A stretch of 64,000 nucleotides of DNA from an uncultured Bacteroidaceae bacterium (GTDB taxonomy: Bacteria; Bacteroidota; Bacteroidia; Bacteroidales; Bacteroidaceae): contig CALUIR010000002.1 of assembly GCA_944320785.1 (NCBI GenBank), positions 149,482 to 213,481 on the forward strand, given 5' to 3'. The notes under the pieces were generated by a model. That model did not search any database and was not told the DNA's origin. It worked only from the letters and a program-made list of their open reading frames with translations. The translations under genes were made by a program, and so were the position numbers. How positions within the stretch are numbered: position 1 is the first letter of the stretch; each line of letters opens with the position of its first letter. Shown one piece after another: positions 23,040-64,000 of the stretch.

Positions 23040-23110
23040 TGGACTATGGTGTAATGGCAGCACAACAGGTTTTGGTTCTGTTTGTCTAGGTTCGAATCCT
23101 GGTAGTCCAA
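23040..23110 (+). tRNA. tRNA-Gln (anticodon TTG)
   Basis: A full cloverleaf can be folded by hand. The acceptor TGGACTA (23040-23046) pairs with TAGTCCA (23103-23109), with discriminator A. The anticodon stem ACAGG/TCTGT has loop TTTTGGT, giving anticodon TTG. The T arm is CTAGG/CCTGG around TTCGAAT. No CCA is encoded. Confidence 0.95.
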
Positions 23111-62254: not shown

Positions 62255-63685
62255 ATGAGACGAATCAAGAACCTTGCCATGGCAACTGCCGGGATGTTGG
62301 CAGTGCTGTTCGTGTGCGCGGCCCACGCACAGGAAACCACCACAATGCGGCTGTTTGACGAAGTGGTGTTTTACGATGGCTATCTGGTGAAGGACAACCC
62401 TGACAAAGACCTCTTTGCCGAGGACGGCATCCTGCGCAACTACACCTACCTTTATGCCGTGAAACTCACCGACGAGCAACTCAACGCCTTCGGCAGCGAG
62501 GTCACCATGAACGTGTGGATACGGGCGTGCTGCGACAATTACGACCGAATCGGCAACATCAACTTGGCCCTGATACCCAAGGACAGCCTGACCTATGACC
62601 CGCTTTTCAACATGGAGCGGCGCATCGAACTGGGGCGGTTCATCACTCCCTTCATGGACAAGAACAAGCAGCCGGACACCGTCCCTTTCACCTACCGCAT
62701 GGACTACGTGAGCTATATTTTCCGCGATGCCGCCCTGCGGGAGCAGTACAATTACTGGGTGGAGTTTGAACTGTTCGGCGTGCCTTATGCCGCCAATACG
62801 CAGATTGCCGGGTGCGAGGGGCGCAACGACGTGTTTTTCGGCACGCTGGACTTCGTGACCTCCGCCCCCGCCTTGGGGCCGACGGAGGAGAACGTGCTGG
62901 CGCCCATCGTCATGAAGAAGCCGGAGTACATCGGCAACAACCTGAACAACTACAATGAGCAGGCCACCGACCAGCTCGGCGAGACGGTGAAGACCTACAC
63001 CTTCGAGGTGCCGGAGGACGTGGCTGACGGGCAGATTGTCCTCATCACCTCCAGCCACGGTGCCAACGCCGGGGGCGAGGAGTACAACCGCCGGTGGCAC
63101 TACATCTATGTGGACGACGAACTGGAACTGACCTACAAGCCGGGGCGCACCTCCTGCGAGCCGTTCCGCAAGTACAACACCCAGATGAACGGCATCTACC
63201 ACGGCGTGAACCACGGGAGCATCTTCCGCCCCGATTACACGATGAGCGACGAGGAGTGGCAGTCGTTCAGCAACTGGTGTCCGGGCGACGTGATTGACAA
63301 CCGCGTCATCCCCCTCGGCCCGCTGAAGGCAGGCACGCACACCGTGCGCGTCTCGGTGCCGGAGGCGGAGTTCGTGAACCAGGAGGGCGACATCCGCGTG
63401 TCGATGTTCTTCCAAGGGCTGAAGGAAGGGCAGTTGCCTGACGGCATTTCTGCCGTGCATGCCGCACAGCAGCCGTTGGTGAGGATACTTTCCCATGGCA
63501 GCACCTTCACGGCGCAGAGCGAGGAGGACATCCTCTCCATCGAGGTCTATGACTTGCAGGGAAAGCGCCTGTACAGCAAGGTGGGCGATGCCCCGGTGGA
63601 CCTTTCGGCGCAGCCTTCGGGCATCTACCTGATGCACGTGGAACTGGCCAACGGCATCATCGCCACGCACAAGGTGGCCCGTTGA
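62255..63685 (+). CDS. PNGase F-like secreted protein with T9SS-like tail
   Basis: Probably related to peptide-N-glycosidase F, which releases N-glycans from glycoproteins. The 476-residue protein has a signal peptide (MLAVLFVCAAHAQ) and two jelly-roll-like halves: the first (~25-190) with VTMNVWIRACCDNYDRIGNI and YRMDYVSYIFRDAALREQYN; the second with IVLITSSHGANAGGEEYNRR, WHYIYVDDELELTYKPGRTS and FSNWCPGDVIDNRVIPLGPL, which recall the glycan-cleaving lobe. The tail YDLQGKRLYSKVGDA to PSGIYLMHVELAN is T9SS-like. Activity is inferred from motif resemblance only. Confidence 0.72.
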   Translation: MRRIKNLAMATAGMLAVLFVCAAHAQETTTMRLFDEVVFYDGYLVKDNPDKDLFAEDGILRNYTYLYAVKLTDEQLNAFGSEVTMNVWIRACCDNYDRIGNINLALIPKDSLTYDPLFNMERRIELGRFITPFMDKNKQPDTVPFTYRMDYVSYIFRDAALREQYNYWVEFELFGVPYAANTQIAGCEGRNDVFFGTLDFVTSAPALGPTEENVLAPIVMKKPEYIGNNLNNYNEQATDQLGETVKTYTFEVPEDVADGQIVLITSSHGANAGGEEYNRRWHYIYVDDELELTYKPGRTSCEPFRKYNTQMNGIYHGVNHGSIFRPDYTMSDEEWQSFSNWCPGDVIDNRVIPLGPLKAGTHTVRVSVPEAEFVNQEGDIRVSMFFQGLKEGQLPDGISAVHAAQQPLVRILSHGSTFTAQSEEDILSIEVYDLQGKRLYSKVGDAPVDLSAQPSGIYLMHVELANGIIATHKVAR

Positions 63686-63798
63686 CGAGGGGCAATTGGG
63701 CGCAGGGGCGGACACCTGTTCCTGCACCTTATTATATATAAATAGATAACGGAAAAGCGTTTCCATTCCTTTACATGACATGATATTGGGCTTCGGCC

Positions 63799-63924
63799 CT
63801 TATTCTCCGTTCTGAAAACCGCCAATTTGAAGCATAGGAGAATAAGTGGTGGAGGTTCACGTCGGCTCAGGCGTGAACCGTTCCCGCTTATTTATATGCG
63901 CGGTGCTTGGCGGTACCTCAGGAC
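63799..63924. ncRNA. Rod-shaped structured RNA candidate (class and strand unknown)
   Basis: Nested perfect or near-perfect helices: 63809-63815/63918-63924 (7 bp), 63818-63825/63907-63914 (8 bp), 63832-63836/63895-63899 (5 bp), 63841-63849/63884-63892 (9 bp, one G-T) and 63854-63861/63872-63879 (8 bp) with a 10-nt loop. An alternative 10-bp helix, 63799-63808/63837-63846, competes for bases 63841-63846. Just before it, GGGC-TTCG-GCCC (63788-63799) is a small hairpin. No open frame fits the 63686-64000 region. The architecture resembles a 6S-like rod or a switching leader. Confidence 0.5.
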
Positions 63925-64000
63925 TAAGAAACTGTTTTGAATTGATTTAAGAATAATGTTATAGGGCTACATACAATTCAGAATCAGCCGGTCAATTGGA

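Follow-up and report, generated by a model that had tools for sequence, protein, structure and literature searches.

The stretch of DNA analysed here, which we call the window, comprises 64,000 nucleotides from an uncultured Bacteroidaceae bacterium (G000:C2:149482-213481), and it ends where contig C2 ends, at 213481. The only Rfam match at gathering scores in the whole window is a tRNA at 23040-23110. Near the right-hand end, a plus-strand open reading frame (ORF; 62255-63685) encodes peptide-N-glycosidase F domains and, below threshold, a Por_Secre_tail sorting domain. The putative leader RNA studied here lies just 3' of this frame and is interrupted by the left end of an insertion sequence (IS; Table 1). 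The initial annotation had placed a rod-shaped RNA in a 315-bp gene-free stretch; such a stretch is present, but it is artificially short, as the window stops at the end of contig C2 (213,481) and the IS starts at 63928.

For the plus strand of 63799-63924, RNAfold predicts rod helices spanning 63809-63924 (116 nt) at -58.4 kcal/mol, against -35.1 +/- 3.4 kcal/mol in 200 dinucleotide shuffles (z -6.8; 0/200 as good), so that the annotated rod of about 116 nt is real and far beyond chance. The minus strand of the same segment folds with z -4.8. A competing helix reported along with the rod was confirmed as well: it is perfect over 10 bp, pairs CTTATTCTCC (63799-63808) with GGAGAATAAG (63837-63846), and shares bases 63840-63846 with the rod. 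As a self-contained unit the rod did not hold up, since it is only the 5' part of a conserved unit that in homologues runs on 3' into a terminator.

Table 1. Elements of the leader copy and the adjoining insertion, in window coordinates.
Element	Position	Strand	Basis
5' segment: GGAAAAGCGUUUCC hairpin plus s0; s0 pairs terminator arm s4 (helix P0) in homologues	63751..63790	+	
GGGC-UUCG-GCCC hairpin; homologues GAGC..GCUC or GGAC..GUCC	63788..63799	+	sequence and alignment
s1, 5' strand of alternative helix	63799..63808	+	s1-s2 pairing and swap test
o5, outer rod strand, partner 63918-63924	63809..63815	+	swap test z -26.0
K1 CCGCCAA, rod partner K2; loop of small hairpin in fold B	63819..63825	+	
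x5, variable rod helix, partner x3	63832..63836	+	helix 4 of rod alignment
s2, shared strand: partner of s1 (fold B) or of s3 (rod)	63837..63846	+	
Apical hairpin GGUUCACGUC...GGCGUGAACC	63854..63879	+	3' arm doubles as terminator left arm
s3: partner of s2 (rod) or of s4 (terminator)	63885..63892	+	swap tests
x3, partner x5	63895..63899	+	rod alignment
K2 UUGGCGG, partner K1	63907..63913	+	rod alignment, compensatory changes
o3, partner o5; final leader element before insertion	63918..63924	+	RNAfold, rod alignment
TAA, inferred target duplication; recurs beyond IS at C39 end	63925..63927	.	
IS5-like element, left end, interrupting leader	63928..64000	.	similar stretches at five other genome places

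Of 61 genomes searched at the DNA level, own included, 9 had matches; the weakest match, L023 (E 0.008, 52 bases), appeared spurious and was excluded. Scanning named genomes with a loose pattern returned at least 119 stretches, at least 22 of which passed a whole-rod filter; among the matches listed, all of these carried Bacteroidales titles (Prevotella, Prevotellaceae, Phocaeicola, Alloprevotella, Xylanibacter, Palleniella, Paraprevotella, Prevotellamassilia, Bacteroidaceae, Paludibacteraceae). The loose pattern also picked up 67 viral stretches, of which only L180 survived filtering; it looks like a chance match in coding sequence. A phage-borne leader was rejected, the one copy compared with phage records (L024) having no match there. 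A copy of the leader at 81% also lies in an unannotated Phocaeicola massiliensis plasmid record (OY725981.1:124199-124457).

We built a covariance model, R1, from a rod alignment of 31 copies, window included, and scored 10 candidates per genome. At E <= 0.001 it matched 151/301 genomes of the family, 82/169 of those of good quality, and 21/30 genera. Because the element is nearly palindromic, the per-genome totals (up to 10) include antisense readings of one place, and separate places were counted from the listed strong matches only; on this count genome G244 has strong matches (99 bits or more) at at least eight separate places. The genome of the window holds two strong copies, two diverged ones and one antisense match. 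A phylum-wide sample of 296 genomes gave matches at E <= 1e-4 in 12, namely our own and 11 others with diverged copies. Of 100 control loci (0.96 Mb in all) from other phyla and viral contigs, preselected for a partial rod pattern, one matched, at E = 0.82. One diverged rod in the genome of the window (L244:1501-1639) sits between a CRISPR array with 15 RF01362 repeats and a lipoprotein-like gene.

The helices of the rod are maintained across these copies. In the 31-copy alignment, 86.8% of cells are paired, compared with 78.4% after shuffling (0/500) and 34-42% when the strands are slid, 140 cells have changed on both sides compared with 58 (0/500), and the covariation score is 0.309 compared with 0.173. 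The number of pairs with a both-side change (18 vs 16.8, 158/500) and of further pair types (65 vs 59.3, 12/500) does not stand out. Rod helices 1 and 2 have both-side changes in 7/7 pairs with 64.5% and 74.2% of cells paired, the outer helix being paired in just 64.5% of cells on this alignment, and helix 4 (x5-x3) has them in 5/5 pairs with 75.7% paired. The CCGCCAA/UUGGCGG pairing of K1 and K2 occurs in 82/92 parsed copies, with an extra A in three more; its invariance in the 31-copy set arises partly because that set was selected by K1/K2. Compensatory changes do appear in L238, L269, L294 and distant copies: copies found by R1 carry the matched variants CCGGCAA/UUGCCGG, UCGCCAA/UUGGCGA and CCGCUAA/UUAGCGG, and CUGGUA/UACCAG and CGACCAA/UUGGUCG are among those of distant copies. 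In the distant set, whose model-fitted alignment comprises 13 sense rows and an antisense one, 88.0% of cells are paired against 62.2% shuffled, the covariation score is 0.662 against 0.215 (0/500), and 36/41 pairs show both-side changes against 23.3.

The second structure, fold B, consists of a 5' hairpin and a terminator hairpin. When 30 intact copies of the first set were folded half by half, the 5' hairpin formed in 30/30 and a terminator hairpin followed by a U-run in 29/30 (judged by eye), the 3' half of L109 folding otherwise. In sequence-only alignments of the 60 copies, the terminator is paired in 96.4% of cells with both-side changes in 12/23 pairs, and the 5' hairpin (s1-s2) in 95.2%, with 5/11 pairs and 43 cells changed on both sides. 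The RNAalifold covariation term was unfavourable in both of these fold B alignments (+3.73 and +0.93).

A swap test set the duplex energy of a strand and its own partner against the energies it gives with partners taken from other copies. From 99 model matches, 92 had a U-run, 87 of these came from the family, and 60 remained as copies with a 5' side once near-duplicates were removed; the seven in which no U-run was found are the window copy, L231, L261, L287, L288, L250 and L251. Own partners were favoured in the rod (inner z -17.0, outer z -26.0), the 5' hairpin (z -9.3), the terminator (z -10.2; s3 alone z -8.3) and P0 (s0-s4, z -7.5), each with 0/2000 permutations as good. The two small-hairpin (kissing) stems were weak (z -4.4, 0/2000; z -2.6, 9/2000). 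Relatedness is left in by the test, but five controls of equal relatedness were flat (-0.1, 0.7, 1.3, 2.7, 2.9). An s1-s4 rod-closing helix was ruled out (z +2.9), and on these tests the helix that closes the rod is s0-s4. Because own partners beat swapped ones, we conclude that evolution has kept mutually incompatible sets of partners. The conservation of mutually exclusive terminator and antiterminator helices, the general mark of a transcription attenuator, is seen in these copies. There is thus strong support for the proposed switching RNA with two exclusive strong folds: covariation and compensatory changes among homologues are present in the helices of both, and one fold forms an intrinsic terminator before a gene.

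Several signals bear on the strand. G-U cells exceed A-C cells in the rod (309 to 42), the terminator (324 to 12) and the 5' hairpin (37 to 16), a count that took the first 92 rows of an alignment also holding antisense rows, and one in which structures derived from the plus strand lean the same way; the excess fits a leader acting as plus-strand RNA. The motif TAnnTTTG, which we take to be the Bacteroides -7 element, occurs on the sense strand of 74/90 copies, at a distance of 40-380 nt upstream from K1 (antisense 32, shuffled mean 15). It is found in just 11/18 copies linked to a small helix-turn-helix (HTH) gene, and for the window copy a search of 63560-63790 did not find it, even when one mismatch was allowed. 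In the same upstream interval, the word GAAACAGACA (up to one mismatch) occurs in 41/90 copies on the sense strand and in 3 on the other, and the leader may have a further 5' domain. Near the promoter and 5' of the rod, L246, L247 and L250 have palindromic, operator-like sequences (in L246, TATTATTCGATACAAATTTGTATCGAATAATA), which in these distant copies suggest a repressor.

A same-strand, ATG-started ORF of at least 45 aa (a loose rule) begins within 260 nt in 90/92 parsed copies, five distant ones included, and start codons lie mostly 3-60 nt past the U-run. By rough and simple rules, the genes comprise 19 small HTH genes, which become 20 XRE-like HTH genes with L262, missed by the rule; 23 coding for BspA-like leucine-rich repeat (LRR) or similar proteins; 9 lipoprotein-like; 33 secreted or signal-like; 6 others (L262 included); and none in 2 copies. 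Secreted or lipoprotein-like genes thus make up 65/92 by rule of thumb. Pieces of six non-HTH examples matched the Pfam families LRR_5 (BspA type), BACON, Por_Secre_tail, FG-GAP, Big_2 and TonB plug, and similar surface-protein genes stand behind several copies within one genome.

The HTH protein itself has only sub-threshold Cro/C1-type matches in Pfam, and a sequence search of the PDB at E <= 0.1 returned no relative. Its fold, predicted with confidence (pLDDT 93.9), is similar to ImmR, SinR, HipB and restriction-controller proteins (TM about 0.7); Foldseek gave no match to it at E <= 0.001. The leader lies directly upstream in 21/30 of the best HTH loci; among 20 further loci picked lower in the list it reaches E < 1e-5 in 3 and is marginal in 2, and one of the remaining lower-listed loci is the IS-split copy on contig C39. 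Across 301 genomes, leader and HTH gene occur together in 97, the leader alone in 54, the HTH gene alone in 31 and neither in 119, an odds ratio of 6.9 that ignores phylogeny and uses an HTH profile made from leader-linked genes. At one locus (L304, G188:C11), the HTH gene keeps the terminator end of the leader only, with unrelated sequence directly upstream; a cargo insertion there was rejected, as the 17.7-kb stretch taken holds no rod, and the locus looks like a truncation.

The last 74 bases of the window recur at five other places in the genome, four of them contig ends, and the fifth, less similar copy (L013) runs on into an apparent IS5-like transposase; on these grounds we place the start of the element at about 63928 and presume that it belongs to the IS5-like family. 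An IS-borne rod was ruled out, as the repeat starts only at about 63927 and the other inspected IS copies are without a rod. At the end of C39 stands the opposite IS end, an inverted relative of GAAACTGTTTTGAATTGATTT, followed by the same TAA that precedes the element in the window, and beyond it by a terminator-like arm with a U-run and then a small HTH gene. The window arm (63870-63895) forms a duplex of -31.5 kcal/mol with the C39 arm; with the arms of 87 other copies the mean is -24.3, and none does better than -30.8. As a partner in P0, the C39 arm does not come first, 17/87 others being as good. We propose that the missing half of the leader (terminator arm, U-run and small HTH gene) is probably that at the end of C39, and that the window copy probably once belonged to this gene and was then cut by the IS element. 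As the IS is multi-copy, the join of C2 to C39 is a putative one. Given such a cut, the window copy would no longer directly couple rod with terminator. The assembly breaks at copies of this one IS (C10, C12, C18, C38 left end; C39 right end), and contig joins can be guessed from the flanks of the copies.

Taken together, the feature appears to be one copy of a widespread Bacteroidota leader RNA that could fold either to pass or to stop transcription, and we consider it likely to be the upstream part of a cis-acting transcription attenuator. The sequence itself shows the two folds and their co-evolution, as well as the U-run, the promoter motif and a location in front of genes. Hypothetically, RNA polymerase first makes the 5' hairpin (h-s1 with s2-a5). 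As the chain lengthens, it could refold into one rod through o5-o3, K1-K2, x5-x3, s2-s3 and the apical hairpin, and P0 would then close the rod and capture the right arm of the terminator, so that transcription enters the gene. Should the rod fail, s3 together with the 3' half of the apical hairpin would pair with s4 and GGUUC-CGCC to form an intrinsic terminator with its U-run, stopping transcription usually 3-60 nt short of the start codon. Termination would follow from anything that stabilises the early 5' hairpin or keeps the rod from forming; candidate triggers are small molecules, RNA-binding proteins and the elongation machinery.

Minimum energies of growing chains, which give the folding order without kinetics, are consistent with this sequence of events: chains that stop within the apical 5' arm form the 5' hairpin in 60/60 copies, chains that include o3 form the rod in 60/60, and the complete leader has the rod in 60/60 and P0 in 53/60. 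Because these chains end in the rod, read-through would be the thermodynamic default, and we infer that the leader is transcribed, that termination occurs and that read-through is the default state. Without s0, the two-hairpin fold is the global minimum in 3/30 intact copies. A kissing contact between K1 and K2 is possible in fold B, because its hairpin tips carry these complementary loops.

The initial annotation likened the rod to 6S RNA, which also has a long rod with internal loops and refolds. No 6S model matches: RF00013 and RF01685 gave no gathering hit in the window or in its genome, and the rod and its nearest copy, compared with Rfam, drew no 6S at E<=10 and weak unrelated matches only. 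This is weakly diagnostic here, because RF00013 finds 0/21 Bacteroidales genomes (own included), so that its silence proves little alone; RF01685 matches nowhere. A 6S homologue is instead contradicted by copy number and gene linkage, with several leaders per genome (G244 alone having at least eight strong copies) standing before start codons, and the ORF behind 90/92 copies is at odds with a gene-independent housekeeping RNA. In addition, PMC7366714 reports a separate 6S RNA with pRNAs in Bacteroides thetaiotaomicron. We give this identity almost no credence. Were the element instead a DNA-level palindrome, such as a recombination site or the end of a mobile element, with RNA folding incidental, its near-palindromic sequence (the complement scores too), the varied neighbourhoods of the copies and the IS beside the window copy would fit; but G-U wobble is strand-specific, the U-run lies on one side, the promoter motif is mostly on one side, copies sit before start codons, and the IS recurs elsewhere with no rod beside it, as a repeat in its own right. 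This makes a DNA-level role very improbable.

A free-standing small RNA acting in trans, with its own promoter and terminator and an incidental neighbouring gene, would account for both of those signals, and termination in the leader would yield a short RNA anyway. Nevertheless, the same-strand ORF within 260 nt in 90/92 copies, mostly 3-60 nt past the U-run, the co-varying alternative helices that a static small RNA would not need, and the similar surface-protein genes behind several copies of one genome make this quite unlikely. The leader might also be the target of the small HTH protein, in an autoregulated switch over a surface-protein regulon. The 20/92 copies before an HTH gene, the leader upstream of 21/30 best HTH loci, the co-occurrence in 97/301 genomes and the Cro/C1-like predicted fold point in this direction, whereas the stated limits of the odds ratio, the 54 genomes with a leader but no HTH hit, the few leaders among the 20 lower loci, and a fold that suggests DNA- rather than RNA-binding point away from it; we hold the idea to be unlikely. 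The attenuator reading is itself not free of difficulties, as the varied downstream genes are unusual for a metabolite riboswitch, and the promoter motif is missing from the window copy and from part of the HTH-linked ones.

A cmscan of 4227 Rfam families found no family or known riboswitch aptamer matching the leader, and the riboswitch comparison called for by the initial annotation thus returned no described class. The literature searched, PMC10994844 among it, holds no description of the leader motif in the parts covered. PMC8040213 mentions 3161 candidate RNAs and PMC9723704 mentions 64 structured 5' regions, both listed in supplements, so that an earlier unnamed listing is possible; two motifs of PMC2864571, GUCCY-hairpin and Bacteroides-2, appear in its table without an Rfam number. 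We rate the leader, from its sequence, as a candidate new class of attenuator leader, set apart from Rfam families.

More broadly, we see about even chances that these leaders make up a large, undescribed, phylum-wide class of cis-regulatory RNA in Bacteroidota, a symmetric bistable leader (rod or two complementary-loop hairpins) that would control batteries of surface and secreted proteins and a dedicated small HTH regulator while sensing some signal. In gut Bacteroidota, control of such proteins has mostly been described at promoters, invertible DNA or small RNAs. A leader that is detected in half the genomes sampled from a single family, frequently at multiple places, and that has both folds in its covariation record would add a regulatory layer and offer precise predictions: single and paired strand changes should switch termination on or off.

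Each known system shares part of this design. The likeness to 6S RNA (RF00013, RF01685) lies in a refolding rod with internal loops, and the difference in the several copies per genome within mRNA leaders, each followed by a terminator and a start codon. Transcription-terminating riboswitches likewise place a conserved structured leader over a terminator, but the present leader matches no Rfam family and its downstream genes are diverse. LoaP/UpxY-type antitermination leaders lie upstream of surface-related loci and contain terminators. The leader described here resembles them in having terminators 5' of surface-related loci, and differs in that the rod itself would capture the terminator arm. 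In trp-type amino-acid attenuators, four ordered strands pair as 1-2 and 3-4 (the terminator) against 2-3. Four ordered strands and a terminator just before the gene recur here, although the antiterminator of the leader is a rod of more than 100 nt closed by a fifth segment, and its genes are those of surface proteins and a regulator.
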